Positions 1-20,986 of a DNA stretch of 33,371 nt are shown here, piece after piece. Origin of the DNA: an uncultured Desulfohalobiaceae bacterium. Its GTDB lineage: Bacteria > Desulfobacterota > Desulfovibrionia > Desulfovibrionales > Desulfothermaceae. Below the pieces are notes generated by a model. It ran no database searches. It was not told the origin of the DNA and saw only the letters and a program-made list of their open reading frames with translations. Every line of letters begins with the position of its first letter. The first letter of the stretch is position 1. The stretch lies in NCBI GenBank assembly GCA_913055815.1, contig CAJXKR010000003.1, positions 1 through 33,371 on the forward strand. Direction: 5' to 3'. Both the position numbers and the translations under genes were made by a program.

Positions 1-108
1 GTCTCGGTGGCAACATTCGGTGTTGCCCTGGCTTTGGCGGTAAAGATCTACAGACGTTATCAGACCCTGGAAGAAGACGAAATCAGAATCCGAATGAGGC
101 ACAAATGA
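1..108 (+). CDS. mnhC: C-terminal end of MrpC/MnhC (NuoK-like) antiporter subunit, truncated by window start
   Basis: Open frame from base 1: VSVATFGVALALAVKIYRRYQTLEEDEIRIRMRHK*, resembling MrpC C-termini; TGA overlaps the ATG of the following mrpD-like gene. Confidence 0.7.
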   Translation, partial: VSVATFGVALALAVKIYRRYQTLEEDEIRIRMRHK

Positions 109-1610: not shown

Positions 1611-3076
1611 TGGAACCAATTATATCCATCAAGCCTCTGCTGGCGGTGTTAGCCTCGCTGCTGGTTATCCCGGTTCTGATATCCAGCAGCGACAGGCCCA
1701 ACATAAGAGAAGGCTGGACGATCCTGGCAGGAATAGTCAAGTTCAGCATCGTGGTTTCCATGTTGCCTGCGGTCTTGCAGGGACAGGAATTGGTGTACAC
1801 ATTGTTTTCCTTTGTTCCCGGGGTGTCGATAAAGTTTCGTGTGGATTCCCTGGGTATGCTATTCGCGCTTGTAGCCTCTTTTTTGTGGATCGTGACCAGC
1901 ATATATTCGATCGGCTATATGCGGGGGCTAAAAGAGCACAGTCAGACCAGGTTTTTCAGTTTCTTCGCCCTTGCCCTTTCCGCTACTATTGGAGTGGCAT
2001 TCTCGGCTAATCTCCTCACTTTGTACATGTTCTACGAGATACTTTCCCTCTCTACCTATCCCCTGGTTGTCCATCACCAGGACGAGGAGTCCAGGAAGTC
2101 AGGGAGGAAATATTTGATCTACATATTGGGAGCTTCCATAGCTCTTGTCCTGCCCTCGATGATTGTCTGCTACAATATTGCCGGCACCCTTTCATTCAGC
2201 AGCCAGGGAATTCTGGCAGGACAGGCATCCCCGGCTGTGCTGGCCATATTGTTGTTCCTGTTCGTCTTCGGATTTGCCAAGGCGGCAATTATGCCACTAC
2301 ATGCCTGGCTGCCGGCGGCAATGGTAGCCCCGACCCCGGTAAGCGCATTGCTTCATGCCGTCGCAGTGGTAAAGGTGGGAGTGTTCAGCATAATTCGCGT
2401 ATTAACCGGAATTTTCGGTATAGAACTGCTTTCCGCCCTGAATCTGGGGCATGTGATCGGATATATAGCCGCGATTACCATCCTGGTGGGATCCCTCATA
2501 GCCATATCCCAGAATGAATTAAAAAGGCTGCTGGCATTTTCCACTGTTAGCCAACTCTCCTATATAATACTGGGCGTGGCCCTGCTAACTCCCAAGGGAG
2601 AACTCGGGGGAATAATCCACATTGTGATGCACGCCTTTGGCAAGATAACCCTGTTTTTTTGCGCAGGTGCGATCATGGTGACCACCGGAAAGAAATATAT
2701 CAGCCAAATGCACGGACTGGGGAAACAGATGCCCATTACCTTTCTGGCCTTTTTCATGGGCAGTTTGAGTGTGATTGGACTACCGCCCACAGGGGGATTT
2801 TACAGCAAGTGGTACTTGGTGCTTGGTTCTTTGCAGGCTGAGCAGCTCCCACTACTTTTGGTACTGTTGGCAAGCTCCTTCTTGAATGCTGTCTATTTCT
2901 TGCCTGTTGTATTCAAGGGCTTTTTTGCCCCGGTTCCCTCCGAGGGTGTGAATTCCCATTACCAGGAGGCCCCTGCAATGTGCCTCTATCCTTTGGTGAT
3001 TACCGGATTGATTTCCGTGGGATTGTTCTTTTATCCGGATTTATTCAAGAACTTGATTCAAATGAGCATCGGTTGA
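1610..3076 (+). CDS. Second MrpD/NuoM-like antiporter subunit
   Basis: 488 aa; YMFYEILSLSTYPLVVHHQ, KAAIMPLHAWLPAAMVAPTPVSALLHAVAVVK; 1-nt overlap with upstream gene. Confidence 0.9.
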   Translation: MEPIISIKPLLAVLASLLVIPVLISSSDRPNIREGWTILAGIVKFSIVVSMLPAVLQGQELVYTLFSFVPGVSIKFRVDSLGMLFALVASFLWIVTSIYSIGYMRGLKEHSQTRFFSFFALALSATIGVAFSANLLTLYMFYEILSLSTYPLVVHHQDEESRKSGRKYLIYILGASIALVLPSMIVCYNIAGTLSFSSQGILAGQASPAVLAILLFLFVFGFAKAAIMPLHAWLPAAMVAPTPVSALLHAVAVVKVGVFSIIRVLTGIFGIELLSALNLGHVIGYIAAITILVGSLIAISQNELKRLLAFSTVSQLSYIILGVALLTPKGELGGIIHIVMHAFGKITLFFCAGAIMVTTGKKYISQMHGLGKQMPITFLAFFMGSLSVIGLPPTGGFYSKWYLVLGSLQAEQLPLLLVLLASSFLNAVYFLPVVFKGFFAPVPSEGVNSHYQEAPAMCLYPLVITGLISVGLFFYPDLFKNLIQMSIG

Positions 3077-3121
3077 GCAGAATGTTTTATGTTTACACCA
3101 TGAATTCAAGGTGGTTTTTTG

Positions 3122-3388
3122 ATGCATGAGAAAGGAAACGATACTGAGCGAGAAAAGGCTTTTCTGGAAAGGTCCAAAACTATCAGGTTTTTGGGGGTGC
3201 TGCTATCTTTTCTTTGTATAGCCAGTATAATTCCTGAATTGTTTGTCTCCAGAAGCGGATACTTCGGAATTGATGGCATGTTTGGATTTTATGCCATTCT
3301 GGGATTTATATCCTGTGTGGTGTTGGTTTTGCTGGGAAAACTATGTGGCCTGATCTTAAAGCGAAGGGAAGATTACTACCAGGAGTGA
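3122..3388 (+). CDS. Small two-TM membrane protein of the antiporter operon, unknown function
   Basis: ORF track starts at a TTG (3119); ATG at 3122 with GGTGG upstream is preferred. Two hydrophobic segments, charged ends. Confidence 0.6.
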   Translation: MHEKGNDTEREKAFLERSKTIRFLGVLLSFLCIASIIPELFVSRSGYFGIDGMFGFYAILGFISCVVLVLLGKLCGLILKRREDYYQE

Positions 3389-3445
3389 ACTCAAGGGCTT
3401 GAAGCTTGAAAATATACACTTAAACAATCCTAAAAAGTTGTAACT

Positions 3446-5206
3446 ATGTTTAATATTCCACCAGCATGGCTGATGATCGGCGGTGCCTTGTTGCTTCCCC
3501 TGTTTACCGGCAGGTCCAGGAATTGCTTTGTCCTGTTCTTGACCGCCTTGGCATTTGTCTGGATTATGGCCTTGGAGCCGGGAAGCTATTTGAGCGTCCA
3601 ATTTTTCGGGTTTGAGCTAACCCTTTTAAAAGTGGACAAATTAAGCAAGCTATTCGGATATATATTTACCCTGTATGGTTTCGCTGCATGCCTGTATGCT
3701 TTTTATTTGCATGACATACGACAACATTTGGCAGCCCTTTTTTATATAGGCAGTGCTTTGGGGGTGATATTCGCAGGGGATTTGGTCTCTCTCTACTTTT
3801 ATTGGGAGATAATGGCCGTGGCTTCTGTAATCCTTGTTCTGGCCAGGGGTGACGAAAAGTCTTACAGCGCCGGGTACAGATACGTCCTGGTCCATATATT
3901 TGGGGGCTTGTGCCTCCTCTTGGGGATTGTCCTTTTTATCCACAACACCGGGAGTGTCAATTTCGAGTCTTTTTCTGCATACAATCTTGCTACTTATCTG
4001 ATATTGCTGGGGGTATTGATCAACGCAGCTGCAGTTCCCCTGCATGCTTGGCTTCCGGATGCATATCCCGAGGCAACTGTTACTGGAAGTGTGGTTCTGA
4101 GTGCTTTTACCACCAAGACTGCGGTATACACCTTGATCAGGGGGTTTCCCGGCTGGGAGATTTTGGTGGTCGTGGGCTGTGTAATGGCCATTTACGGACT
4201 GGTTTACGCCTTGATGGAAAACGATATCAGGCGGATCTTGGCCTATTTCATAATCAACCAGGTGGGATTCAAGGTCGCGGGGGTGGGGATCGGAACTGCA
4301 CTGGCTTTGAACGGATCTTCAGCCCATGCTTTTGCCCATATCATCTACAAGGGAGTTATGTTCATGGCTGCCGGTTCAGTGATATATATGACCGGGAAAA
4401 GCAAGTGCACGGACTTGGGCGGATTGTACAAAAGTATGCCCTGGACAACTATATTTTGTTGTATCGGTGGGTTGTCCATGGCAGCATTGCCCTTGACCAG
4501 CGGATTCACCACCAAGTCCATGATAGTAGTGGGGGCTGAGCACGAACACATGTTCTGGACGTGGCTGGTCTTGCAAATAGCTTCCGCCGGGGCATTCCTG
4601 CTGGCAGGGATAAAATTTCCCTATTTTATCTTTTTTGGCAAGGACAAGGGCCTTAGGCCGGGTGAAGCCAACTGGACTATGCTCATTGCAATGGGGATAT
4701 TGTCCTTTCTGTGTATTTTGATAGGGGTATATCCGGAAGTTCTCTACCGGATCCTCCCCTTTGATGCACATGCCTATCACCCCTATACAGGGTCCCATTT
4801 GATTACTAAAATGCAACTTGTAATGTTTTCAGCCCTGGCATTTTTCCTGCTTTTGCCACTTCTCAAGCATACAAGGACCATTTCCCTGGATACGGACTGG
4901 TTTTACAGGAAGGGTTTTCAGCTTGCGTATACCGGGATATCCAAGTTTTTTACCGGATTGAACAATATATCCGAAAGATCTTCCCTTGGGATTGTACACG
5001 GCCTTGCAGTATTTTTTCGCGACGCTGCCACCAGGATAATTATGTTTTTAATGGTAACGGTCTGGTTGTTAACCGGCTCCCGTGGTACGAAACTGGAAAT
5101 GCAAAAGAGGAATTTGTATCTGAATATGCGCCGGGGAACAATGCCAGTGGGTATAGGAGCCGCAATTTCAACTATATTCATAGTGATTGTGTTTTTTTTG
5201 AACTAA
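3446..5206 (+). CDS. Third antiporter-like subunit (NuoL/MrpD family) with C-terminal extension
   Basis: 586 aa; LYFYWEIMAVASVILVLARG, NAAAVPLHAWLPDAYPEATVTGSVVLSAFTTK; extended TM/amphipathic C-terminus. Confidence 0.88.
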   Translation: MFNIPPAWLMIGGALLLPLFTGRSRNCFVLFLTALAFVWIMALEPGSYLSVQFFGFELTLLKVDKLSKLFGYIFTLYGFAACLYAFYLHDIRQHLAALFYIGSALGVIFAGDLVSLYFYWEIMAVASVILVLARGDEKSYSAGYRYVLVHIFGGLCLLLGIVLFIHNTGSVNFESFSAYNLATYLILLGVLINAAAVPLHAWLPDAYPEATVTGSVVLSAFTTKTAVYTLIRGFPGWEILVVVGCVMAIYGLVYALMENDIRRILAYFIINQVGFKVAGVGIGTALALNGSSAHAFAHIIYKGVMFMAAGSVIYMTGKSKCTDLGGLYKSMPWTTIFCCIGGLSMAALPLTSGFTTKSMIVVGAEHEHMFWTWLVLQIASAGAFLLAGIKFPYFIFFGKDKGLRPGEANWTMLIAMGILSFLCILIGVYPEVLYRILPFDAHAYHPYTGSHLITKMQLVMFSALAFFLLLPLLKHTRTISLDTDWFYRKGFQLAYTGISKFFTGLNNISERSSLGIVHGLAVFFRDAATRIIMFLMVTVWLLTGSRGTKLEMQKRNLYLNMRRGTMPVGIGAAISTIFIVIVFFLN

Positions 5207-5266
5207 CAGGATAGATAATTGTATACATTAGCTTGCTATAAAGAAAAAAAATAAGAGGAGTGTTTC

Positions 5267-5752
5267 ATGATTGAGACACATGAAATAAGAAATATCCATA
5301 TGTTGCAGGATTTTTCCGAGGAAAAACTCCAAAAGATTGCTGAATTGGCCAATCTGCAGATAGTAAATGCTGAAACAGTCTTGTACAGGGAAGAACAGAA
5401 CCTGAGTTATTTGTATATGCTGCTTTCAGGAAAGATTATACTGGAAGTGGATGCCTCGGAAGACATCAGTGTAACTCTTGGGGTGATCAAACCCAGATAT
5501 ACTATTGGTACCTCTTCACTCATACCAAAGGCAAAGAGTTACGCCACTGCTTTTTGCGTCGAACCTAGCGAGGTTATATTCATCAACGCTGCTGAACTAT
5601 ATACATTGTTGGAAAATGATCTGGAGTTGGGATTTCTTTTCATGCAACGAATCATGCATATTTATGAATCCAGATTGGCTAACCGGACTTCCCAGTTTTT
5701 ACAAGCCCTTAAATATCACCCGGAATTGCAGCGGGTTTTTCAGGAACGCTAA
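5267..5752 (+). CDS. Cyclic nucleotide-binding (CRP/cNMP-like) domain protein lacking an HTH
   Basis: 161 aa; MLQDFSEEKLQKIAELANLQIVNAETVLYREEQNLSYLYMLLSGKIILEV is typical of the cNMP-binding fold; RBS AGAGGAG upstream. Confidence 0.75.
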   Translation: MIETHEIRNIHMLQDFSEEKLQKIAELANLQIVNAETVLYREEQNLSYLYMLLSGKIILEVDASEDISVTLGVIKPRYTIGTSSLIPKAKSYATAFCVEPSEVIFINAAELYTLLENDLELGFLFMQRIMHIYESRLANRTSQFLQALKYHPELQRVFQER

Positions 5753-6265: not shown

Positions 6266-7696
6266 ATGGACATGTTTTCAGTTCTGGGAATGAAATATAA
6301 TCCCTTTTCCGCAGCTGTAGATGAAAAGAACTATTACCATACCAGTACGACCAAAATAGTCTTGAGCGAATTTATGGAGGCGATCCATAAACGGCAGGGC
6401 TTTATTGTCCTGTCCGGAGATGTCGGTGTTGGCAAGACTTCCCTGTTACTGCAGCTTTTTCCTAGGCTGGAAAGGCAAAATGTGGTGACTTCTTTAATCA
6501 TAAACAGTCTTTTGACCAGGGAAGAATTATTGACAAGCATTTGTCAAGATTTTGGCTTGAATATATCCTATGATTTGAATTTTTCCCGTTTATTGAATAT
6601 CCTACACAAGTTTTTTTTAAAGAAAAACAAGGAAGGCAAGAATTGTGTAATAATTATCGACGAAGCCCATAATCTTAGTGTCAATGTTCTGGAATCCTTG
6701 AGGATGCTCTCCAATCTGGAAACCAGGGGAAAAAAGTTGGTCCAGATTATTCTGGTAGGACAACAGGAACTCATGGACCAGTTCAAGAGAAAAGAACTCA
6801 GACAGTTAAAAAGCAGGATAGGTTTGGTTCAACATCTCTACCCACTTACTCGCCAGGAACAGGAAGACTACGTAAAATTCAAGTTGGCCAGCAGTGGTTC
6901 ACAAGTGAGGATCACTTCTGGGGCGATGAAATTGTTATGGATAACCACACTGGGTAATCTTCGCTTGATCAATGTTGTCATGGAGAGATCTCTGCACGCT
7001 CTGGTGGTATTCAATAAAATGATTATTGACAAACAAATCCTCAAGAGCGCTTTGAAGGATATTGCCAAGTATCGCAGTGAAGTCCTGAGACGTCTAAGAT
7101 TGGTCTGGACCAAACGATTGGCCTATATCTGTCTTCCCATAGTTTTGACCTGCACCACAAGCTTTTTTCTTCTGTTTTCCCAAAATCTGTTTATTTCCGC
7201 CTCTTCATCCCCTTTAAACAAAGACGGAGGGAAAGTGGTTTCTTCTGAAACCGGACATCCAGATAATTATTCCAGGAATAAAAGCAGTGAAAGGGTTCAG
7301 GGACCTGAGGAGGATTCCAGCAATAAAGCTGCTTTATCCAAGAAAAGAAATAAAGGTCAATCTATGGATAAGGGAAATGTTTCGTTGCCAAAACAGGACT
7401 CCGAAACTGAATCCAAATCCAAGGATTTTTGGTTTATAGTACAGATAAGTGTTTACTCCCAAAAAAACAAGGCGATCCAAAAGCTTTCCAGTTTGCAAGA
7501 AAAGGATATAGAAGCCTGCTTTCTGCCGGTCTGGGATACAGAAGGAAACAAGTGGTACATGGTGGAAGCGGGTCTGGCCAGTAAAGAAAAAAATGCGCAG
7601 GCTATGGCCCAAAAGTGTCAAAGTGTTCTTGATCACGATATTTCCGTGATAAGACTGGAAAAATCCATGGTAGAAAAGAATTTGCAATGTCTGTAG
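6266..7696 (+). CDS. mshM: ExeA/MshM-like AAA ATPase with C-terminal SPOR-like domain
   Basis: MDMFSVLGMKYNPFSAAVDEKNYY, Walker A GDVGVGKT, Walker B VIIIDEAH, TM segment near aa 290, then FWFIVQISVYSQKNKAIQKLSSLQ...WYMVEAG. Confidence 0.85.
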   Translation: MDMFSVLGMKYNPFSAAVDEKNYYHTSTTKIVLSEFMEAIHKRQGFIVLSGDVGVGKTSLLLQLFPRLERQNVVTSLIINSLLTREELLTSICQDFGLNISYDLNFSRLLNILHKFFLKKNKEGKNCVIIIDEAHNLSVNVLESLRMLSNLETRGKKLVQIILVGQQELMDQFKRKELRQLKSRIGLVQHLYPLTRQEQEDYVKFKLASSGSQVRITSGAMKLLWITTLGNLRLINVVMERSLHALVVFNKMIIDKQILKSALKDIAKYRSEVLRRLRLVWTKRLAYICLPIVLTCTTSFFLLFSQNLFISASSSPLNKDGGKVVSSETGHPDNYSRNKSSERVQGPEEDSSNKAALSKKRNKGQSMDKGNVSLPKQDSETESKSKDFWFIVQISVYSQKNKAIQKLSSLQEKDIEACFLPVWDTEGNKWYMVEAGLASKEKNAQAMAQKCQSVLDHDISVIRLEKSMVEKNLQCL

Positions 7697-9381
7697 AAAA
7701 CCCATCAAGAACAAAACAGAACGCGCAGGCTGATAACGTCCAGTTAAAGTTGGGGGAAATCTTAATAGAGAAGGGAATCATCAATGAAATTCAGCTTAAT
7801 TACGGTCTGGAGATACAAAAGACCAACAAAGAAAAGATAGGATCAATCCTGGTCCGCAATGGATTATTGAGCGAATATGATCTGATGATAGCGTTGTCCA
7901 GGCAGCTAGGCTTGCGATATGTCAATCTGGAGCAAATAAAGCCGGATGTGGAATTCTTGAAACGTTTTCCACAAAAAAAGTGTTATACCCAGCGCATCTT
8001 GCCTTTGCAGAAGCACCGGAATAATCTCTTGGTAGCCACCTCGGAACTGCCTGATGCAAAACTTGAGCAGGAAATTCTAAAAGCCTGCGGTATTAGGCCT
8101 GTATTTTGTTTGGCTGAGGAAACTCGACTAATCAGCGCTGTCAGCAAGGCGTATTCCTCATTTATGTTTTCCACCAGGCAACTTTTGGACCAGGAAGTAA
8201 AAAGACTTCAGGCAGACAGGGATAATGTACAGGATGTGGAGAGTTTTTTCACCTACCTGCTTCAACTTGCCTTGGAACACAGGGCAACTGATGTCCATAT
8301 CAGTTCTTTGCCTCTTAATATAGATATAAATTTTCGAGTAGACGGGCTTATAACGCATATATTGGCCTTGCCCCCGGAAATGCAAAGAATCGTCTCAGCA
8401 ATAAAATTGAAGGCTGATATGGATATATCAGAACAAAGACTTCCTCAGGACGGGCGTTTTTCTATCACTATTTTAGCTCAGGAATACGATATTCGGGTTT
8501 CTTGTATTGTAACCAGTTACGGGGAAGATCTGGTCCTTAGAATCCTTCCGAAAGTACTGGCCAATTTTACATTGAATTCCCTCGGATTCTTTAACAAGGA
8601 TGTTAATCGGCTTTTCAAGCTATTCAAGGAACCGGCCGGTCTTATACTGATATCCGGTCCAACCGGATCGGGTAAATCCACTACCATGAATGCAGGCTTA
8701 ACATCTCTGGACTTGTTGGAAAAGAATGTCATAACCGTAGAAGATCCTATTGAGTATCTGGTACCCCTTGCTAAGCAGACCCAGGTCAATTCCGATATTG
8801 GATACGATTTTTCGCAGGCAGTCTACAACTTTCTTAGGCACGACCCGGATATTATACTTGTTGGCGAGATGAGGGACCCAGAAACAGCCTCCGCAGCCAT
8901 AACCGCTTCCCTGACAGGCCATCTGGTATTGTCTACCTTGCATAGCGATACTGAAATCGGAACGATTACAAGGCTTCAAAGCCTGCATGTAGAAAACTTG
9001 CTATTAGCTGAAGGCTTGTTGGCTATAGTAACTCAACGCCTTGTTCGAAAGATTTGTCCCAAATGTCAAACTAAGTACACCCCAACCCCGGAAGATATCG
9101 ATTATCTTGGTTACAGGGCCAATTATCTGCAAAAAGGGGGAGGTTGTGATTTTTGCAATAATACCGGTTATTACGGTCGCACAGTAATTTATGGATTATT
9201 GGAGGTTGATACGGAACTTACCCGCCTGTTGAGAGAAAATGCACCCTTGCACGAGATAGAAAGAGTGGCCAAGGATAAAAGGATCCAGAATATGTTCGAA
9301 ACTGCGCGATATAAAGTTCTGCAAGGTATAACCACAATAATGGAATTACAGAGGGTCTTGGGTAGCCATTTAAGAGATTGA
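7687..9381 (+). CDS. mshE: GspE/PilB/MshE assembly ATPase with MshEN-type N-terminus
   Basis: Walker A GPTGSGKST, Asp box VEDPIEY, Walker B LVGEMRD, His box STLHSD, zinc CPKC...CDFC; two N-terminal KLGEILIEKG/KIGSILVRNG repeats. Confidence 0.93.
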   Translation: MSVENPSRTKQNAQADNVQLKLGEILIEKGIINEIQLNYGLEIQKTNKEKIGSILVRNGLLSEYDLMIALSRQLGLRYVNLEQIKPDVEFLKRFPQKKCYTQRILPLQKHRNNLLVATSELPDAKLEQEILKACGIRPVFCLAEETRLISAVSKAYSSFMFSTRQLLDQEVKRLQADRDNVQDVESFFTYLLQLALEHRATDVHISSLPLNIDINFRVDGLITHILALPPEMQRIVSAIKLKADMDISEQRLPQDGRFSITILAQEYDIRVSCIVTSYGEDLVLRILPKVLANFTLNSLGFFNKDVNRLFKLFKEPAGLILISGPTGSGKSTTMNAGLTSLDLLEKNVITVEDPIEYLVPLAKQTQVNSDIGYDFSQAVYNFLRHDPDIILVGEMRDPETASAAITASLTGHLVLSTLHSDTEIGTITRLQSLHVENLLLAEGLLAIVTQRLVRKICPKCQTKYTPTPEDIDYLGYRANYLQKGGGCDFCNNTGYYGRTVIYGLLEVDTELTRLLRENAPLHEIERVAKDKRIQNMFETARYKVLQGITTIMELQRVLGSHLRD

Positions 9382-9398: not shown

Positions 9399-10625
9399 AT
9401 GCGAATATATTATTTAAAAATGATAACCCCGGAAGGATTGTTGCAAAAACGTTTCATAAGTTTGCCATTCAATAATTACATGGCTGCTTTGCGTTATATG
9501 GAAAAAAACAAAAATATTGTCATAAACATACGTGCGCTGCCTGCATACATTGGTTGTTGGATCAAGTACCTTTTACCAGGTGAGGTAAACATAAAAAGGA
9601 AACAGCTAGCCGAGGCATTTAACAATATTGCTATCTTGTTGAATTCTGGATCCAGTCTCGCAGAATCTGTTAGTGAAGTAAGCCAGGATACTAACAACGA
9701 ACTTTTAAAACAATCCCTGTACTTGATACATCACGACCTTCAATCAGGGTTGGAATTTTACAAGGCACTTCAAAGGCAGCAGGACTATTATCCTGATACT
9801 GTCATAAATCTTGTTAGAACAGGACAGGAAACTGGCCGGATGTCGGATATGTGTGCCAGAGTCTCCAGATACTATCAAAATATAGACAGGATCGTCAGCA
9901 GGACCAAAAGGGCCCTGCTTTATCCGGCAATATCCCTGGTCATGGTTATGGCAGTAGTAGTTGTCTGGTTTGTATATGTTATTCCCAAGATTTTAAAGTT
10001 GTTCGAGAATGCGGGAGTGGCACTTCCGTTGGAAACAAAATTGTTGGTTTTTCTGTCCAATTTTTTTCAGGAATATTTTCTGATCTGTTTGCTATTCCTT
10101 GTGGTTGGTCTTAGCGGTATTTATTTGCTTCACAGGTTGTTTTATTCAGTAAAAAAAATTATTGATTCAGCGATACTTCGGATACCTATCTTGGGTGATT
10201 TTATCAAGACCTCCGAAGGAGCCAGGATCAGCCAAAATCTGGAAGTATTGATGGAATCGGAAGTGGAACTCTCCAGAGCTTTTGGCATAATCTCTCATAC
10301 CGTGGTCAATGTAGAATTAAAGGAGAGAATACAACTGGCTTGGGACAAGATTAAAAAAGGCAGTTCAATATCCTCCGGGTTGTCTCGGGCCAAAGCCCTG
10401 GAACCCTTTGCCTTGCGGATGTTGAGTGTGGGTGACGGTACCGACAAGATAAAAGAACAAGCAGCTTACGTGGCAAATTATTATCAGGATAAGCTGGAAG
10501 GCAAGTTGGATATTCTTTTGAAAATGATCGAACCGGTGCTGATTACCATCCTTGGCATTATGTTTGCTTTAATTGTATGGGGATTGTTTTTGCCAATTTA
10601 CGAATTGATCGGAAATATTGCCTAG
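9399..10625 (+). CDS. mshG: GspF/PilC/MshG-like inner membrane platform protein
   Basis: 408 aa; LAEAFNNIAILLNSGSSLAESV, VYVIPKILKLFENAGVALPLETKLLV, C-terminal EPVLITILGIMFALIVWGLFLPIYELIGNI. Confidence 0.92.
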   Translation: MRIYYLKMITPEGLLQKRFISLPFNNYMAALRYMEKNKNIVINIRALPAYIGCWIKYLLPGEVNIKRKQLAEAFNNIAILLNSGSSLAESVSEVSQDTNNELLKQSLYLIHHDLQSGLEFYKALQRQQDYYPDTVINLVRTGQETGRMSDMCARVSRYYQNIDRIVSRTKRALLYPAISLVMVMAVVVVWFVYVIPKILKLFENAGVALPLETKLLVFLSNFFQEYFLICLLFLVVGLSGIYLLHRLFYSVKKIIDSAILRIPILGDFIKTSEGARISQNLEVLMESEVELSRAFGIISHTVVNVELKERIQLAWDKIKKGSSISSGLSRAKALEPFALRMLSVGDGTDKIKEQAAYVANYYQDKLEGKLDILLKMIEPVLITILGIMFALIVWGLFLPIYELIGNIA

Positions 10626-10658: not shown

Positions 10659-11099
10659 ATGTTTAAAAAGATTCTGGTAATAATTTTTTTGGCTTTGTTT
10701 GCCTCTTCTTTGGCAATAGCAGATGGTTGGCTTTATTCGCGCATTAATCACAAGCAGGCCGAACTGAGAAGTCTTCAGCAAAGGAAAAACAAACTCAAAA
10801 CCCAACTCAAAAAGGTCAAAAAGAAACAAGAACAAATCAGAGAGTTAAAAAAACTCTGGCCAAGAATGGTCAATTCATTTCTTACACCTGAAAAATGGGA
10901 GCACTATAAAATAGACATTCAAAAGAAAGTACCCTGTCAAAAGGTGACAGATTTTTTAACCAATCTCCAGCCAAGCAAAAGACATGCTGAACATAAGACT
11001 GGTTATTGGCTTGTACCTAAAAAATTGCAAGTCAAAAGATTGGATAACAAGAATTACAGGGTTGATTTAAAGGGGCGCATCAATCTTTATGCCCCTTGA
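10659..11099 (+). CDS. Single-TM coiled-coil protein, possible PilO/MshJ-like alignment subunit
   Basis: N-terminal TM, then lysine-rich coiled coil and small C-terminal domain; position between gspF-like and ATPase genes. Confidence 0.5.
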   Translation: MFKKILVIIFLALFASSLAIADGWLYSRINHKQAELRSLQQRKNKLKTQLKKVKKKQEQIRELKKLWPRMVNSFLTPEKWEHYKIDIQKKVPCQKVTDFLTNLQPSKRHAEHKTGYWLVPKKLQVKRLDNKNYRVDLKGRINLYAP

Positions 11100-11132: not shown

Positions 11133-13175
11133 ATGTATCAGGAACTGAAAAACATAGGCACGGTCATAACCATCGCCAGCGGAAAAGGTGGGGTGGGAAA
11201 GACTAATCTGGCAGTGAACCTTGCCCTTTCCATGGCAAGGTTCGACAAAAGGATTTGTCTTTTGGATGGTGATATGGGTACTGCCAATGCAGAAGTACTT
11301 TTGAACGTCAATCCGGAATATTCATTGCTGGATGTTTTGGAGGACAAGTGTGAATTACAGGAGGCCCTGGTTGAATGTCAACATCAATTGAATTTGCTCT
11401 CCGGAGGAACAGGCCTTGAACGGCTCGCAGAGCTATCCGCTCATGAAAAGAAGCGTTTCAAGGAGATTATTCCGCTATTCAAGAGATTCGATACTATGAT
11501 TATTGATTGCAGTGCTGGTATTAACAGGCAGGTGGTGGATTGGATGCGCTATTCTACTTTGCCTATAATAGTTTCAACCTCTGAACCTACATCTGTAACC
11601 GATGCCTATGCACTGATCAAAACCCATTCCCGCCATTCCTCCCAACCTCTTTATCTTTGCATGAACAAGGTTAAGGAGTTGGATTACGGCAATAAGGTCT
11701 TTCACAAGCTTAAGAATATAGTTGGTGAGCAATTGAATATCCCGATAAAGTATTTTGGCTCACTACCGGAAGATGAAAAATTGCAAAAATCGGTCTCTCT
11801 TCAAAAAACCGTATTTTTGAGTCATCCAAATTCAAGCTTCAGTCAGGCTATTGAACATTATGCAGGAAAACTCACCGGACAAGGCAGTGTTACTGCTCAA
11901 TCGAAAAAAAATAATAATTTCGAACAAGCGTCTTCCTTGAAACAAAGAAAGGAGGAAATTGAACAGTCTAATACTACAAAATCCAGCCATGAATCAGCCG
12001 ATAAAAGACTGAGGGAACTGCTTAACAGTGCCTTCAACAAAAGGGCCACGGATATACATATTGAGCCCCTAAACAACCAGTATTCCATTAGGCTTCGCAT
12101 TGACGGGGTGCTAGAACCTGTTCAGGCAATGAACAAAGAAACAGCCCTGAATCTGATCCAGGGCATTAAGTATGCCAATTCTGGCCAAATGGAAGGAAAA
12201 GGTTTGTGGCAAAAGGGATTGTTGCGCATGACTTCCCAGGATATGCAGGATACAATGGTGGCCCGTGTATCCCTCTTTTCCATGCAAATGGGAGAGGCGG
12301 CAGTGATCAGTTTTCTGGAGAAAGATTCTGACTTGAAAGGCATTGAAGATCTCGGACTTTCCGGATCTATGCCGGAGAGCATACAGGAGAGGATAATAAG
12401 TCCATTTTACGGTAATTTCGCCTTAATAGGCCCGAGAAGTTCCGGAAAGACTTCTACTCTTTACGCACTCCTCATGGCTTGTAGGGGCCCTGGACTGAAG
12501 ATAGTGACAGCAGAGGATCTGATAGAAAATCAACTGGAAAGAGTCTCTCAAACCCAGGTCTCGTTCGAGGACAGTGATTCCTTGTGGTGGACTTTCAGGG
12601 AATTACTGCTTCAAGACCCGGATTTGATTGCTATGGACGGAGCGGATTCCAACCATGGGCTTGCTGAGATACTGGATTTGGCCCGGGTGGGACATAAGCA
12701 GTTTTTTACCTGTACAGCCAGATATTCAAGCGGATTCCTTCACTACCTGGCAGGACAGGATATTAAAACCAGGGCTTCACTTGAGCCACTTCAGGGAATA
12801 CTGGGGCAAATGTTGAGCAGGAAGCTCTGCCAACATTGTGCCAAGCCTTATTTCCCGGGTAACAAGGAAGCCGATTTGTTGAAATATCACGGATTTTCCC
12901 CTGCTGAAAACAATTGGAAGAAACCGACCGGATGCAGACATTGTAACTTCAGTGGATATTGGGGTAGAACGGGAGTCTTTGAATATCTCGATCTGGACGA
13001 GGAGTTCAGGGACGGCTTAATGCAAGGATGTGATCTGAAATCGCTTAAAGAAAATTTGTACAATAAAAGCCAAGCCATTACTCTTGTTTCCGATGCCTTG
13101 AACAAGGCTTCCCAGGGATTGATTTCCCTGAATGAAATAATAAACCGGATCCCGTATGAAAAAACAAAGTCCTGA
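11133..13175 (+). CDS. Fusion: MinD/FlhG/ParA-type ATPase + catalytically degenerate GspE/PilB ATPase domain
   Basis: Uninterrupted 680 aa ORF: SGKGGVGKTNLAVNLAL near N-term; second half DIHIEPLNNQYSIRLRIDG, GPRSSGKTST, TAEDLIEN, zinc CQHC...CRHC. Confidence 0.9.
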   Translation: MYQELKNIGTVITIASGKGGVGKTNLAVNLALSMARFDKRICLLDGDMGTANAEVLLNVNPEYSLLDVLEDKCELQEALVECQHQLNLLSGGTGLERLAELSAHEKKRFKEIIPLFKRFDTMIIDCSAGINRQVVDWMRYSTLPIIVSTSEPTSVTDAYALIKTHSRHSSQPLYLCMNKVKELDYGNKVFHKLKNIVGEQLNIPIKYFGSLPEDEKLQKSVSLQKTVFLSHPNSSFSQAIEHYAGKLTGQGSVTAQSKKNNNFEQASSLKQRKEEIEQSNTTKSSHESADKRLRELLNSAFNKRATDIHIEPLNNQYSIRLRIDGVLEPVQAMNKETALNLIQGIKYANSGQMEGKGLWQKGLLRMTSQDMQDTMVARVSLFSMQMGEAAVISFLEKDSDLKGIEDLGLSGSMPESIQERIISPFYGNFALIGPRSSGKTSTLYALLMACRGPGLKIVTAEDLIENQLERVSQTQVSFEDSDSLWWTFRELLLQDPDLIAMDGADSNHGLAEILDLARVGHKQFFTCTARYSSGFLHYLAGQDIKTRASLEPLQGILGQMLSRKLCQHCAKPYFPGNKEADLLKYHGFSPAENNWKKPTGCRHCNFSGYWGRTGVFEYLDLDEEFRDGLMQGCDLKSLKENLYNKSQAITLVSDALNKASQGLISLNEIINRIPYEKTKS

Positions 13176-13289
13176 AAATGATTGTTCCCAAAAGCTTACG
13201 TCCAATCAAGGTTTTCGGTCAGGCACTATAATAATTTCTCTACAGCTCAAGGGACCAAGTGTGCCAAGGAACTAGTCAGTATGCTGAAC

Positions 13290-13316
13290 ATGGAAAGTTT
13301 TCTCGCTACTTCGTAG
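13290..13316 (+). other. Mini-ORF MESFLATS* in leader of the PilMN-like gene
   Basis: ATG GAA AGT TTT CTC GCT ACT TCG TAG; resembles the start regions at 13448 and 13543. Confidence 0.25.
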
Positions 13317-13327
13317 TCGAGATTACC
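13301..13327 (+). repeat. Dispersed hairpin leader repeat, copy A
   Basis: TCTCGCTACTTCGTAGTCGAGATTACC; CTAC-TTC-GTAG hairpin extended by TCTC/GAGA. Confidence 0.7.
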
Positions 13328-13387
13328 AGAGTGTTAAGGTTTTAAAGTTTTAAGTAAGAATATTTTATCTAGACTTTTCTTGCAACG

Positions 13388-13450
13388 AAGATCTCGTAGT
13401 CGAGATTGCCTATGTTTCGGTGTGTTTGCCAGGGGATGGGAGTTAACATG
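13388..13450 (+). repeat. Dispersed hairpin leader repeat, copy B, running into SD and ATG of a mini-ORF
   Basis: GAAGATCTCGTAGTCGAGATTGCCTATGTTTCGGTGTGTTTGCCAGGGGATGGGAGTTAACATG; stem ATCTCG-TAGT-CGAGAT. Confidence 0.75.
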
Positions 13451-13486
13451 AAAAAAGTTTTATGTTTTAGAGTTTTAAGGTTTTAA
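13448..13486 (+). other. Mini-ORF MKKVLCFRVLRF* with strong SD
   Basis: GGGAG at 13438-13442 then ATG at 13448; same SD spacing as the ATG at 13543. Confidence 0.4.
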
Positions 13487-13542
13487 GGTGTAGAATAAGA
13501 CTTTTCATCATTCGTTGTGGCCGCCAGGGCATGGGAGTTATC

Positions 13543-14889
13543 ATGGAAAAGTATAAATCCAATTGGAAATCATTACTTGAGACACCCTCAAGTTGCCTGT
13601 TGAATATACAGGATAGCCTGTACCTTGCCTCGGAACAAGGTATACAAGAAGTCCAGGGAATTGAGGGAATCGAGTCTTATTTGTTCTATTTTACTGATTT
13701 TTCGGGTTTTTTTGATATGGGCACCCTGGATGTTCAGGGGGATTACAAGTATGCATCTCTACTTGTCAGGAAACGTTTGGAAGACGAAGGTAAACTCGAG
13801 GATGAAGACAGGCTCTTGATCTATGCAAAGCATAGGCAGGAAAAGGGAATCACCAGGGTCAGTTACGGAATAGTCCCAGCTGAAAGATACAATTCCCTGC
13901 AAAAGATTTACGAGCAACATCCTTATGGATTGATTTATTTCGATCCGGGAACGGTTCTCCTGGGACTTGTATCGAAAATGGATCAAAGCACGGATCACGC
14001 GGTAGCACTGTACAGTAATAACGCAATAGTGGTTATCTATGGAAGAAAAAATCGAATTGTTCAGTTCAAGAGTTATCACTTGAGAGATAATACCTTGAAC
14101 TCCCTGCAGGAGGGACTCGGGTTTGTGGAGGACGATATCCGGATGCTCAATTGGCAGGGCTGCAGCATAGACAGGCTTGTCTTGCTGGAATGCCTGAATC
14201 AGCAAGCCTTAAACACTGAAGAACTGGATACTGAAATAGAGCAGTCCTATAGGAAAGAATACCTCATTAAGGGAAAAAGAATCTATTCTTCGCTTCCAGA
14301 ACTTTTGCCTGCGCTTCCCTTGCATTTCGCCTTGGCTCCTGGGGAGGAAAAGGTTTACAGGTCTTTGGAAAAGGGGAGGAAATGGCTCCTGGTACTGCTG
14401 CTGTTTTTTATTCTATGCGGCGGCGTAATGGCAGGGAAGTCTACATCTGATTTTTTCCAGCTTCAAAAGCAAGTAAGCGATACCGAGAGAAAAGTAGCGG
14501 CTTTGCAGGAACAACTCTCCAATCAAATAAAACAGGTCGAGTTTGAACACGCGAAGGAAATGAGAGGGATGCAGAAGGTTGCCGGAAATGTGCTGGCTAT
14601 TTCCAAAACTCCTGCCCTGGTATCAGTTTGGAATGGAATTGCTGAATCCAAAGGGGAGAAAATCAATCTGGATAGGTTGGAAATAAAAGACCACAAGAAT
14701 TCCTTCAGGATTCATATAGAAGGGACTATAGAATCGGCACCCTTTTCTGCCCAAGAAAGTTATTCCGGACTGATTCTGAATATGAAAAAAAGAGGGTTTA
14801 AAATAATGAATAAAGAGTTTGTTAGCAAAATGCAAAATTCCTTCACCTTAAGTATGGAGTATAACGAGAACAGGGCAAACGTGATGTAA
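13543..14889 (+). CDS. PilM-PilN-like fusion (MshI/GspL-type) pilus protein
   Basis: ORF track starts at 13531; ATG at 13543 preferred (GGGAG 5 nt upstream). Soluble N-terminal domain, TM WLLVLLLFFILCGGVMAG, coiled coil and small C-terminal domain. Confidence 0.75.
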   Translation: MEKYKSNWKSLLETPSSCLLNIQDSLYLASEQGIQEVQGIEGIESYLFYFTDFSGFFDMGTLDVQGDYKYASLLVRKRLEDEGKLEDEDRLLIYAKHRQEKGITRVSYGIVPAERYNSLQKIYEQHPYGLIYFDPGTVLLGLVSKMDQSTDHAVALYSNNAIVVIYGRKNRIVQFKSYHLRDNTLNSLQEGLGFVEDDIRMLNWQGCSIDRLVLLECLNQQALNTEELDTEIEQSYRKEYLIKGKRIYSSLPELLPALPLHFALAPGEEKVYRSLEKGRKWLLVLLLFFILCGGVMAGKSTSDFFQLQKQVSDTERKVAALQEQLSNQIKQVEFEHAKEMRGMQKVAGNVLAISKTPALVSVWNGIAESKGEKINLDRLEIKDHKNSFRIHIEGTIESAPFSAQESYSGLILNMKKRGFKIMNKEFVSKMQNSFTLSMEYNENRANVM

Positions 14890-14900
14890 GCGTCTAGGGT

Positions 14901-15422
14901 GTGGATTATCAAGGAGCTATTGAGCAGGTTTATTCAACTATGCATTACAAAAGAAAATATATAGCTTTAGAATGGGGTTTGGTTGCTATTCTACTTATTG
15001 TCTCTTGTTTTTATTTATATACCGTCTTTGCATCAAAAGGAACAAGCAATTTGAAAGTATCAGGAAGAGGCAAGGATTTTTCAGTGAAAAAACTCCAGAT
15101 AAATACCGAGCCATTGAAAACTGCCTTTAATATTTTTCCGGACTTGGATGAGGACAGGGGTAGGCATATTAAAAATCTTTTTGCTTGTCCGGTCAAGGAG
15201 ATAAAACTTGAAAAAGTGCCGGATTTAATAGTCAGTATGATATTCATCGGACAGAATAAAAAATATGCAGTGGTTAACGAGAATATTTACACTTCCGGGG
15301 ATATGTTGCCCGGGGGGAAAAAGATCAAGGCAATAAACAAGGATTCTTTGTTGATAGCAGACAATGGCAAAGAGAAGAGAATCTATTATAAAGACCCGGA
15401 AACTGTATATTTGAGCAAATAA
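14901..15422 (+). CDS. PilP/GspC/MshK-like periplasmic pilotin-type protein
   Basis: N-terminal TM, then LIVSMIFIGQNKKYAVVNENIYTSGDMLPGGKKIKAINKDSLLIADNGKEKRIYY resembling a GspC HR/PilP domain; start GTG 14901 or ATG 14940 uncertain. Confidence 0.65.
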   Translation: MDYQGAIEQVYSTMHYKRKYIALEWGLVAILLIVSCFYLYTVFASKGTSNLKVSGRGKDFSVKKLQINTEPLKTAFNIFPDLDEDRGRHIKNLFACPVKEIKLEKVPDLIVSMIFIGQNKKYAVVNENIYTSGDMLPGGKKIKAINKDSLLIADNGKEKRIYYKDPETVYLSK

Positions 15423-15445: not shown

Positions 15446-17047
15446 ATGCAAATAAAACACCAGTTGTACCTTTTAGTTATATTAACATTGTTTGTTTTTG
15501 CGATGTCTTCCTGTTCCGGAACTCATCAAAAAGGAATTGCTACAGACGAGGAGAATAAGCAGCAAAGACTTCAAAAACACAACAAGAAGCTGAACAAAAT
15601 GCGCCAAAAAGAGCGTGAACTGGAAAAGACCCATGAAAGGGGGAAGAAAACCTATCCTCAACCTGTGGTTCCAAGTTACAATCCCTTGAAGGAAACTCCC
15701 ATTTCCCTGTCGGTTACCCAGGAACCCTTAAGGAAAATACTTTATATAATCAGCAAGAACGCTGGTCTTAATTTGGTTATAGACCCCGAGGTTTCCCTGG
15801 ATAGTGAAGTAACTGTCAACTTTCAGAATACACCCTCTTATACAGTAATGAACAAGTTGCTCAAGGCCTATAATCTTACCTGGGAGGTCAATAACAATGT
15901 CCTGCACATAAAAAAATACATAGAAGAAACCTTTCAGTTGGGTTTTCTGAATACCAAGACTTCGGTGGACATAAACGCAGGTGGCAATGTCCTGGGGGAA
16001 ATGGGTTCTGGGAATAACAACAATAATAACAATCAGGCTACCAATTTTTCCGGTCAGTTCAAGATCAACTCATCATTGGGTAAAGGAGTTGAGTCAGGAT
16101 CTATTTATCATCATCTCCAGAACAATATAGAGAATATACTGCAAAATGAAGGCAACAGGCAGGAAGGTTATTTTACTCTTGATCCGACCAGCGGGACTCT
16201 TCACATCAAGGCTTCCAGATCTCAAATCAAAACTATAGCCAAGATGTTGAATAGGCTGAAAGAGAAAATGTCCCACCAAGTGCTTATAGATGCCCGGATT
16301 ATCGAGGTGAAATTAAGCGACAGCAATAAGTTGGGAATAGATTGGTCGGTTCTAACCGAGCGTTTCCTGGATGGAAAAGGATTGAATATCGACCTTGGTT
16401 GGACAGGAGATAGCGGATCAATGCCCCTTACCGTAGTTCATGGCGGAGACTCCAACCAGGGTAGCAATCAGGAACGGACATCATTATCTATGGCGGTACA
16501 AGCCCTGCAATCCTTCGGGGACGTCTCCATAGTCTCCAGTCCGCTACTAAGGGTGAAACACAACCAATCCGCACTTTTTACTTCCGGATCTTCACAAAAT
16601 TATATACGGAGCGTAAATCAGCAAAGTTCCTACACAGATGACAATAGGATCAATAGAGAGTCATCTGTTCAGGTAGACACCATCTTCGACGGAATCATGC
16701 TGGGAGTGGTACCTTTTATAAAAGAGAACCAAAAAGTGGATTTGCAGATTTTTCCCATTAAAAGCCAAATAGACCCTGGAAGCCTGCAATTGCAAAGCGT
16801 GAACCAAGAGGGTGACAAGATTTCCTTGCCCAGGGTGGATGTAAAGAACTTGAGTACCAATGTCAGGGTCAGGGACGGAGATACAGTAATACTGGGAGGT
16901 CTTATAGACAAAACTTCCAGTGAATCCAATAAATCCTTTCCCGGTGTTTCCCATATTCCAATATTGAGTTCCTTGTTGGGGTCCTCTTCGGAACAAATAG
17001 AGGTACGGGAAATGGTAGTGATTATGAAAATAAGGGTTGTTTCATGA
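15446..17047 (+). CDS. mshL: Secretin (PilQ/GspD superfamily, MshL-like) lipoprotein
   Basis: Lipobox-like MSSC; STN domain LRKILYIISKNAGLNLVIDPEV; secretin core VSIVSSPLLRVKHNQSALFTSG, VRDGDTVILGGLIDKTSSES..PGVSHIPILSSLLG. Confidence 0.93.
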   Translation: MQIKHQLYLLVILTLFVFAMSSCSGTHQKGIATDEENKQQRLQKHNKKLNKMRQKERELEKTHERGKKTYPQPVVPSYNPLKETPISLSVTQEPLRKILYIISKNAGLNLVIDPEVSLDSEVTVNFQNTPSYTVMNKLLKAYNLTWEVNNNVLHIKKYIEETFQLGFLNTKTSVDINAGGNVLGEMGSGNNNNNNNQATNFSGQFKINSSLGKGVESGSIYHHLQNNIENILQNEGNRQEGYFTLDPTSGTLHIKASRSQIKTIAKMLNRLKEKMSHQVLIDARIIEVKLSDSNKLGIDWSVLTERFLDGKGLNIDLGWTGDSGSMPLTVVHGGDSNQGSNQERTSLSMAVQALQSFGDVSIVSSPLLRVKHNQSALFTSGSSQNYIRSVNQQSSYTDDNRINRESSVQVDTIFDGIMLGVVPFIKENQKVDLQIFPIKSQIDPGSLQLQSVNQEGDKISLPRVDVKNLSTNVRVRDGDTVILGGLIDKTSSESNKSFPGVSHIPILSSLLGSSSEQIEVREMVVIMKIRVVS

Positions 17048-17925
17048 GCCTTATTTACAAGAGCTTACAGGAATTGGATAAAAGAGAAATTGAGCGGAAA
17101 TCTTCACACTTTTCGGCAACAGGGAAAACAAGACCGAAAAGAAATGCCAGGATTTTTTTTGTCAGTATATTTGGCACTATCGCAGTAGTGTTCATTTTTA
17201 TGAATTATACGGGATTGAATCAAAATACAAAAACTGATAGTCAAGCAAGTGGAGCTATAAACCCAACATACGAGATCAAAGAAAATATCTCCAGGACTTA
17301 CTATAATCCAATTAAAACAAGAAATAATTCGGATTTAAGCCAATTAAAACAGGTTAATATTTTGAATACTCCCCAAGAAAAAAGAAAAGGCACTTATACA
17401 AAGAAAGATAAAATTGTTCAGAACATGGAAGAGAGTGCATCAAATAAACACGAAAGCACTTCTTTGCATAAAAAGAACACTCCAAAAAGCAAAGATACGA
17501 TAAAAAAAACAATAAACCAACACAAAACTCAAGCACAAGATGTTGACTTTTTTTCCAAAAGGAATAATAAGAATGTTCGTATCTCCAATTTGGAACAAAG
17601 GTTGAAAAGGTTTTTAAAAACCAGACAGTGGGATAAATTGGAAAAAAACTTGAAAAAATTGGACAGTATAATTGGCTCCAGGAGTTTTTTGGCCTTGAAA
17701 TGGCGTGGAGTAATGTATTTACAAAAAAACAAGGCGCAAAAAGCGGAGAATTTATTCAAACAAGCCCTCTCCATCAGGCCTTTGGATGTGGAAAGCCGTG
17801 TGAATCTGATTCTGACTCTTCTGAGACAGGAAAAGAAGAAACAAGCACGGGAAATTTACAAAAGATTGCTTTCAAATAGACCGTTGAACAAAAATGTCCG
17901 GAAATTGGAATCTGTGTTTGAGTGA
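17044..17925 (+). CDS. TPR protein with N-terminal TM (MshN-like)
   Basis: ATGA overlap with secretin; TM RIFFVSIFGTIAVVFIFM; C-terminal TPR repeats KAQKAENLFKQALSIRPLDVESRVNLILTLLRQ. Confidence 0.7.
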   Translation: MSLIYKSLQELDKREIERKSSHFSATGKTRPKRNARIFFVSIFGTIAVVFIFMNYTGLNQNTKTDSQASGAINPTYEIKENISRTYYNPIKTRNNSDLSQLKQVNILNTPQEKRKGTYTKKDKIVQNMEESASNKHESTSLHKKNTPKSKDTIKKTINQHKTQAQDVDFFSKRNNKNVRISNLEQRLKRFLKTRQWDKLEKNLKKLDSIIGSRSFLALKWRGVMYLQKNKAQKAENLFKQALSIRPLDVESRVNLILTLLRQEKKKQAREIYKRLLSNRPLNKNVRKLESVFE

Positions 17926-18136: not shown

Positions 18137-18739
18137 ATGAATTTTGATTTTTACAGGCGAAAAAAGGCTGAAGAAGGTTTTACACTGGTGGAAATTGCAA
18201 TTGTTCTTATCATAATCGGGATAATCATGACTGCTGTACTCAAATCCAGTGCTGTTGAGGATAAGGCGAAATCAGTAGAATTCAACCAACACCTGGAAGA
18301 ATTGGATACTGCCGTCGCTTTGTACAAGGACAAGATAGGTATTTATCCAAATGCTACCGAGAGTGAAAATTATATTCACAACGGAACCAAAAACGGAGAG
18401 CAGGGCATCTTACCCGATCTGTACAATGAGGGTATGATCACCACGTCTGAAAATACCCATCCTTTTGATGGCGAGATGAACGCTTCGTATGCAGTTTATA
18501 ATAGTAGCATAGATGGTGGTGGTTCTGTAGGTCCCTCAGATATTAATATCAATTGGGGCGGGAATTATGTTGAAAAACAAAACATAGTAGCCTATACACA
18601 CGTTCCTCCAGCATATGCCCGCAAGGCAGACGAGACCTACGATGATGAAAACGCCAGCACAGGTAGAGTCCGGGCTTCAAATAGGTACGACAACGGTACA
18701 AATGAATATATCAAATTATACTGGAATCTGGACGGTTAA
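18137..18739 (+). CDS. Type IV prepilin (candidate major pilin)
   Basis: MNFDFYRRKKAEEG|FTLVEIAIVLIIIGIIMTAV prepilin cleavage motif; AAGGAGG SD; dedicated AT-rich upstream region. Confidence 0.92.
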   Translation: MNFDFYRRKKAEEGFTLVEIAIVLIIIGIIMTAVLKSSAVEDKAKSVEFNQHLEELDTAVALYKDKIGIYPNATESENYIHNGTKNGEQGILPDLYNEGMITTSENTHPFDGEMNASYAVYNSSIDGGGSVGPSDININWGGNYVEKQNIVAYTHVPPAYARKADETYDDENASTGRVRASNRYDNGTNEYIKLYWNLDG

Positions 18740-19005: not shown

Positions 19006-19503
19006 ATGAACAGAATAAAAAAAAACAACGGTTTTTCCATTATTGAACTCTCTCTGGCGCTTATAGTTGTAGGTCTGGTGATTAGCGCAATCTATCCGGC
19101 TATACTGCAAAGCCTGCATTGGAGCCAGTATGAAAAGGGCAAAGAGGTCGTTCAAACCGCCCGCCAGGAGATAGTTGGATCTGCCATGATAAATGGCACA
19201 CTCCCTGAGTCTCTGGAGACCGTGGGGCATACAGTTGATCCATGGAATGACGATCTTTTTTACAGAAACGCCACCAACTTGGGCAAGATATGCGAGTTTA
19301 ACGCTACCAACTCCTCGACTGATTTAACCCTTCGCACCACTGATAACAAGACTATTGAAAATGTGGCTTTCCTTGTAGGAAGCAAGGGAGAAGACGGAAT
19401 GGTGGACAGCAAGATCCGGACTGATCCGGTTGAGCTAGATGCTCACGACATAGTCGAATACGTAACTCTTCAATATCTCAAGAACAAATTGGATTGCCAG
19501 TAA
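19006..19503 (+). CDS. Type IV prepilin-like protein (second pilin)
   Basis: MNRIKKNNG|FSIIELSLALIVVGLVISAIYPAI with Gly-Phe and Glu+5; two cysteines near the C-terminal half. Confidence 0.85.
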   Translation: MNRIKKNNGFSIIELSLALIVVGLVISAIYPAILQSLHWSQYEKGKEVVQTARQEIVGSAMINGTLPESLETVGHTVDPWNDDLFYRNATNLGKICEFNATNSSTDLTLRTTDNKTIENVAFLVGSKGEDGMVDSKIRTDPVELDAHDIVEYVTLQYLKNKLDCQ

Positions 19504-20574: not shown

Positions 20575-20986
20575 ATAACGTCCGCGAATTCAAGTAGCTT
20601 TCCAGGATCACCACTGCTGCTTGTTGATCCAGGTATTGGTTCAACTTGTACTTGGAAACATTTGCTTGTTTTAATTGTTCCTTCGCCTCTATGGAGGAGC
20701 ATGTTTCATTTACAGTATAAACCGGAAGTCCGCTTTTCTTTTGGATGCGACGGATAAAGTTTTTTGCCTGAACAGTAATTTCGGTTTCCTGTCCGTAGAG
20801 ATCAAATGGCATCCCCACCACCAGGGCATCGATCTTTTCATGATTTATGGTATCCAGCAGTTCATCCCAGAACTGCCGGTTAGTTTTCTTGTACAAGGTC
20901 TTCAACGGGAAAGCCAGTGTACCCGCAGCATCGGTCATGGCGAGTCCGGTTCGCTTTAGTCCGAAATCTATTCCTAAGTAGCGCAT
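20564..20986 (-). CDS. ruvX: RuvX/YqgF family RNase H-fold protein (Holliday junction resolvase-like)
   Basis: MRYLGIDFGLKRTGLAMTD, ALVVGMPFDLYGQETE, YTVNETCSSIEA, LDQQAAVVILESYL; overlaps mltG. Confidence 0.93.
   Translation of the reverse strand: MRYLGIDFGLKRTGLAMTDAAGTLAFPLKTLYKKTNRQFWDELLDTINHEKIDALVVGMPFDLYGQETEITVQAKNFIRRIQKKSGLPVYTVNETCSSIEAKEQLKQANVSKYKLNQYLDQQAAVVILESYLNSRTLYEV

Follow-up and report, generated by a model that had tools for sequence, protein, structure and literature searches.

FlhG governs the polar placement or the number of flagella, and TadZ/CpaE does so for Tad pili. In the Tad systems, CpaE is required for localisation of the secretin, and CpaE dimers have been modelled around the CpaF motor hexamer (PMC13170226). 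In archaea, FlaH binds the archaellum motor FlaI, and FleN/MinD genes are present in archaeal pilus loci (PMC4858521). Two motor-family proteins are also found within one pilus system, as with TfpB and PilB in Acinetobacter baylyi, where TfpB is a second extension ATPase (PMC11656802), and with PilT and PilU, which stay separate homohexamers despite cooperating (PMC6821130). PilB has been described with E395 as its catalytic residue, E357 in the ASP box as a Mg ligand, a HIS box, and two arginine fingers, R271 and R286 (PMC5424180).

In this study, we describe a gene in which a MinD-type ATPase and a PilB/GspE-type motor domain, inactive as judged from its residues, are joined in one polypeptide. 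It was observed in a window of 33,371 nucleotides, which is a whole contig of the draft genome of an uncultured Desulfohalobiaceae bacterium (3.07 Mb, 353 contigs, 85% complete, 6.5% contamination). The fusion may parallel TadZ/CpaE, a ParA/MinD ATPase that works on the pilus motor CpaF, itself an ATPase of this motor superfamily; CpaE, however, stands as a protein of its own and bears a receiver domain, whereas the fusion has no receiver, its switch is covalently joined to the apparently inactive motor copy, and its neighbours are MSHA-type and not Tad. The archaellum pair FlaH/FlaI and the archaeal FleN/MinD loci likewise combine a regulatory ATPase with a GspE-type motor, though as separate genes, and FlaH is KaiC-like and not MinD-like. 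As with TfpB/PilB and PilU/PilT, a second motor-family protein stands in one pilus system here, but TfpB and PilU are treated as ATPases themselves and carry no MinD domain. A literature search returned neither a MinD-GspE fusion nor a pseudo-ATPase PilB.

The fusion gene and its two domains

The fusion gene occupies positions 11133 to 13175 of the forward strand as a single ORF of 680 amino acids with zero internal stops, and its start must lie at or 3' of base 11133 because a stop codon stands directly 5' of the ATG there. It begins 33 bp 3' of the preceding gene, tightly packed within a pilus operon, and its codon usage and GC3 are like those of its neighbours; therefore, a recent foreign origin is not indicated. 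An earlier note, made from the letters alone, had proposed a MinD-like domain, a polar linker and a GspE-like domain in one ORF, and both the ORF and the Pfam matches bear this out. The MinD/FleN-type domain covers aa 8-250 (11154-11882, Pfam AAA_31/CbiA/ParA at aa 8-247), the polar linker aa ~251-285 (11883-11987), and the PilB/GspE-type pseudo-motor, with an N2 domain, a RecA-like domain and a zinc module, aa 286-670 (11988-13142), all on the forward strand. The T2SSE match extends over the whole of aa 286-670 and spans positions 5-369 of the 370 in the profile; it scores 166.9 bits, whereas the canonical neighbour MshE reaches 355. Among solved structures, those nearest in sequence are Thermus PilF for the motor half (166 bits) and Pseudomonas FleN for the MinD half (149 bits). 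This is a new domain architecture inside known families.

The nucleotide site of the MinD domain is intact, with the deviant Walker A motif SGKGGVGKT (K18, K23) and the aspartates D45, D47 and D125, and the EPTSxxDAYALIK region is also kept. The MinD switch is thus apparently working, with dimerisation and hydrolysis predicted from the kept residues. This Walker A motif and the switch aspartates are common to FleN/FlhG (PDB 5j1j, 8pb9, 4rz2), and FlhG-type proteins are about 33-37% identical to the fusion over the MinD domain. Unlike FleN/FlhG, it is fused, lacks the FlhG-type N-terminal motif and does not adjoin flhF; a separate FlhG is encoded beside FlhF elsewhere in the same genome. No C-terminal membrane-targeting helix and no FFW-type end were found in the MinD domain, which runs directly into the polar linker, and a scan of the linker gave a low hydrophobic moment, with no membrane-targeting amphipathic helix and no stretch that is both amphipathic and hydrophobic. 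The NCBIfam model minD_bact gave 115 bits, below its cut-off of 212.9. In a small tree, the fusion MinD grouped (99/98) not with FlhG but with MinD proteins from its own order whose C-terminal region is receiver-like, and by this grouping the fusion looks assembled from native parts, with the MinD branch itself being long.

These MinD proteins with a degenerate receiver-like C-terminus are found across the order at about 450-480 aa (L166:2690-6771, L167-L170, and L176 with 563 aa), resemble TadZ/CpaE with reversed domain order, and have as neighbour a gene whose product is about 900 aa long; in the genome of the fusion (L166, contig C2), this product is an HDOD-histidine kinase-receiver hybrid. 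Homology of their C-terminal part to GspE was considered and rejected (hhalign probability 0.3%). The same genome also encodes, on contig C77 (L160:1360-2232), a MinD/ParA protein that carries a zinc ribbon at its N-terminus.

With regard to the motor half, residue conservation was scored in an alignment with 87 homologs. The gap-free alignment with the neighbouring GspE given by the earlier note, LLQDPDLIAMDGADS...ARVGHKQFFTCTAR, is correct, and the three substitutions it had named, E to G, R to D and H to T, lie at aa 503, 505 and 528, where all 87 homologs carry E, R and H, respectively; judged from the alignment, these losses are far beyond chance. The Walker B region (DPDLIAMDG, aa 495-503, 12615-12641) has changed by G502D and by the loss of the catalytic glutamate, E503G, giving hhhhDG, so that it has a Mg-binding-type aspartate without the catalytic glutamate and is probably of a non-catalytic type. 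The HIS box (GHKQFFTCT, aa 520-528, 12690-12716) has lost its histidine (H528T). Further arginines have been lost as well, including R393, R493 and R538 (87/87 in the homologs), R560 (86/87), and R363 (82/87; leucine here). By spacing, aa 363 and aa 378 match the PilB arginine fingers R271 and R286, of which the first is lost and the second kept. In total, 20 of the 67 near-invariant columns (at least 95% conserved) have changed, against a family median of 0.

Comparatively, the residues kept include Lys439, Glu461 and Arg378 (each 87/87 in the homologs), Glu465, Gln559 and the four zinc cysteines. Walker A (GPRSSGKT, aa 433-440, 12429-12452) retains Lys439 and the general GxxxxGKT pattern, with T435R and G436S at positions that are otherwise invariant, and the ASP box (TAEDLIE, aa 459-465, 12507-12527) retains Glu461, with P463L. 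The two zinc cysteine pairs, CQHC (aa 566-569, 12828-12839) and CRHC (aa 601-604, 12933-12944), were placed from the alignment and, together with Walker A and the DIHIEP/RLRIDG region, are retained as the earlier note had reported. The pseudo-motor has in common with PilB/GspE/MshE (PF00437; PDB 5oiu, 5it5, 5tsh, 1p9w) the fold, the N2 and RecA-like domains, the P-loop lysine, the ASP-box glutamate, one arginine finger and the tetracysteine zinc module. Unlike these proteins, it lacks the catalytic glutamate, the HIS-box histidine, several arginines and the N1/MshEN domain, for which Pfam gave no match in the fusion protein and whose place in front is taken by the MinD domain.

The NCBIfam equivalog scores of the fusion, 199 for GspE (cut-off 630) and 189 for PilB (cut-off 676), are both below the cut-offs, as are those of the canonical neighbour MshE (418 and 411). 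The pseudo-motor shares 25% identity with this MshE and 30-34% with many other PilB/GspE proteins; its end branch measures 4.5-10 changes per site, and a grouping with the MshE clade is neither rejected nor supported (AU p 0.51). An AlphaFold2 model, built from 35 homologs for the motor domain alone because the two-domain full-length alignment misaligned rows, displays a complete PilB fold (pLDDT 82, pTM 0.80) with PilF, PilB and EpsE as best matches. The motor domain thus appears dead by its residues yet folded in the model, and the pseudo-ATPase assignment of the earlier note is upheld at the sequence level by the changed near-invariant columns, the catalytic residues being among them.

The MSHA-type operon

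The fusion gene is located in an operon ordered ExeA, MshE, MshG, small coiled-coil protein, fusion, PilM-PilN/GspL-like, MshK-like, MshL, TPR and pilins, all on the forward strand. Upstream of the fusion, profile matches identify an ExeA/MshM-like AAA ATPase (6266-7696) and an MshG/GspF-type platform protein (9399-10625), and between these is the canonical MshE-type extension ATPase (7687-9381), with MshEN present and catalytic residues intact. The small protein (10659-11099) has an N-terminal TM-like segment and a coiled coil, and from the gene order its role would be PilO/MshJ-like. Downstream are the PilM-PilN/GspL-like protein (13543-14889), with an actin-like domain, a TM helix and a small alpha-beta domain, and, by profile matches, an MshK/GspC-like protein (14901-15422) and an MshL-type secretin (15446-17047). 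The PilM-PilN/GspL-like assignment was made from a structural model (pLDDT 81.5), among whose matches are PilM, FtsA and GspL as present in the GspE-GspL complex. MshL is the best secretin model, at 231.4 bits, just under the equivalog cut-off of 250.2. A TPR protein, MshN-like by position (17044-17925), a type IV pilin-like protein with an N_methyl match (18137-18739) and a pilin-like protein with a near-threshold N_methyl match (19006-19503) complete the set. ExeA/MshM, MshE, MshG, MshK-like, MshL, TPR and pilin genes therefore occur together, in an order conserved in relatives. The pilus association claimed earlier is supported and can be specified as an MSHA-type cluster with its own motor, catalytically intact and with MshEN. 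No Rfam families were found in the window.

A dispersed mosaic repeat fills the 370 bases 3' of the fusion gene (13176-13545, forward strand), up to the PilM-PilN-like gene, and is present in 63 pieces genome-wide, some of them at contig ends. The modules terminate in GCCAGGGCATGGGAGTTAACATG, an SD-like stretch and then ATG, and the PilM-PilN-like gene probably takes its start codon (13543) from the last of them. Among 20 loci inspected, a long frame opened from the repeat ATG was seen only at this locus and L184. Such a repeat is a site where assemblers can err.

Other features of the window and its relatives were recorded alongside. MshE (7687-9381) has lost two near-invariant residues, R380Y and E503G in its own numbering, and has a long branch against its orthologs. 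In many relatives, the PilM-PilN-like orthologs (L088:7723-9528, L091, L093, L094, L101, L102, L104) apparently have about 70-200 extra N-terminal residues, and the one in L088 has no Pfam match. Positions 105-5752, immediately upstream of the pilus operon, hold three consecutive NuoM/MrpD-type antiporter subunits and then a cyclic-nucleotide-binding protein. At 20974-24537, FAD oxidase, 4Fe-4S and CCG domains are fused in a protein of 1187 aa, and RuvX and MltG genes follow in the same orientation.

Branch lengths were compared in trees of eight orthologs each, with the median of six Desulfovibrionales relatives as reference. The end branches of the window proteins were 1.61 against a median of 0.44 for MshE, 2.80 against 0.83 for MshG, 3.16 against 1.2 for ExeA, and 1.18 against 0.77 for the secretin. 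The excess is larger for MshE, MshG and ExeA than for the secretin, so that divergence is greater on the cytoplasmic and inner-membrane side. This pattern fits an adaptation of MshE and MshG to a new partner, with which these branch lengths are compatible without being proof; the long MshE, MshG and ExeA branches could alternatively reflect a general divergence of the operon.

Distribution of the fusion

The fusion is known from a single MAG. No fused MinD-GspE protein was detected in approximately 1,370 genomes searched, which comprised 348 of the order, 395 of the phylum, 11 of the family and 12 named genomes, as well as 389 from the phylum to which a Stutzerimonas locus belongs and 247 from that of a Myxococcota locus, two of these searches having no positive control inside the set. 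Nor was it found among plasmids (tblastn) or in two GTDB contig scans, which used short exact patterns, one of them six peptide patterns, so that distant relatives would escape. The search for the ParA/MinD plus T2SSE architecture that the earlier note had suggested therefore returned no fused homolog in any of these collections. The lineage restriction holds within the sampled sets.

A secretin search revealed a related operon in 22 other genomes of the order. From 20 loci fetched, at least nine relatives in the order show the same gene order from motor to secretin without the fusion (the loci spanning this stretch being L088, L089, L090, L091, L094, L096, L097, L102 and L098), and a MinD domain was found in none of such operons (tblastn, 150 loci). 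Co-occurrence of the fusion with the N-terminal extension of the PilM-PilN-like protein was also considered and rejected, as the fusion is missing both from relatives that have the extension and from relatives that do not. The best-scoring canonical motor for the pseudo-motor (34% identity) is from genome G329 of the same phylum and belongs to another kind of locus (L065:5761-8683), T2SS-like with secretin and GspF-like genes, in which a ParA/MinD-like gene ends within the first part of the GspE gene; ParA/MinD-like and GspE proteins therefore do occur as neighbours.

Discussion

We consider it an evenly balanced prospect that the fusion is an accessory regulator of the surrounding MSHA-type pilus, anchored at the pilus base through its dead motor and gating MshE by its MinD cycle. 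The motor domain would bind ATP without hydrolysing it and act as a docking module, for which the active MshE, the MshG platform and the PilM-PilN-like protein are candidate docks. The MinD domain would dimerise with ATP and release upon hydrolysis, thereby setting when the docked pseudo-motor is present, and this presence would gate assembly or extension by the real motor. Precedents among separate proteins are CpaE with CpaF, FlaH with FlaI, the archaeal FleN/MinD genes, the second motor proteins TfpB and PilU, and the overlapping genes of G329. Docking on the motor may, however, be weakened, as several arginines are gone. A more specific version can be offered only tentatively, namely a one-polypeptide pilus clutch, in which the MinD cycle would have the dead motor occupy or free the docking site of the motor, gating extension, with the neighbouring motor and platform co-adapted to it. 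The earlier note had assigned to the MinD part control of location or timing; timing or gating fits at least as well, whereas positioning of the classical MinD kind is less well supported. Control of position is possible as a secondary role.

Among the alternatives, a positioning protein, whose MinD part would set the pole placement or number of pili with the dead motor as a hook only, survives best, and we hold it to be unlikely. It draws on the FleN/FlhG-like domain with its intact nucleotide site and on the need for CpaE in Tad secretin localisation (PMC13170226). However, true FlhG has an FFW/FFR-rich C-terminal membrane helix that is absent here, and the linker offers no substitute; the FlhG-type N-terminal motif is missing, and the nearest MinD relatives on the tree are the MinD-plus-receiver-like proteins and not FlhG.

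A subunit built into the rings of MshE, where it would reduce or adjust their ATPase activity, is less probable still. The pseudo-motor shares the fold, and it keeps both residues that MshE has lost (R380Y and E503G, MshE numbering), but two retained positions are no better than chance, and complementarity with the MshE losses was rejected on this ground. Since the identity to MshE is only 25% and interface and catalytic arginines are gone, mixed rings are less likely, and the mixed or stacked complexes with MshE that had been proposed are putative and, as simple mixed hexamers, disfavoured. PilT and PilU, moreover, stay separate (PMC6821130).

Only slightly behind, at a low probability, comes a failing duplicate without pilus function that is heading for loss, as might be suspected from its presence in a single genome and its very long branch. 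Nevertheless, the 680-codon ORF is free of stops and frameshifts at about 30% identity to all relatives, structural invariants are kept where catalytic ones are lost, and the nucleotide-site residues of the MinD domain are kept; the intact frame and these retained residues therefore indicate that selection acted over most of the history of the gene.

An assembly chimera or a contaminating contig is very improbable. The genome is a MAG, and the multi-copy repeat directly 3' of the gene, with copies at contig ends, might mislead an assembler; yet the repeat is downstream only, 33 non-repeat bases link the fusion gene to the MshE, MshG and small-protein genes, and one open frame crosses both domains. 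A chimera is unlikely because the upstream join lies outside the repeat and the operon is syntenic. Contamination is opposed by RecD2 on the contig, which shares 61-65% identity with relatives in the family and the order, and by the uniform codon usage. Equally improbable is a motor domain active through other residues, for example with Asp502 replacing the glutamate, since, despite the kept P-loop lysine and ASP-box glutamate, the HIS box and several arginines are lost too and Asp502, aligned without gaps to the glycine before the catalytic glutamate, is one residue off the catalytic position.

Returning to the accessory regulator, the fusion is a natural one and suggests that a MinD-type switch and a PilB-type motor act on one machine outside the Tad and archaeal systems. 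It is also a natural experiment on the use to which a pilus motor domain is put once ATP hydrolysis is lost. A recent review (PMC11656802) raises the question whether different pilus ATPases assemble into hetero-oligomers or into hexamers of their own, and by what mutual interactions they regulate extension; the fusion protein provides a handle on it.
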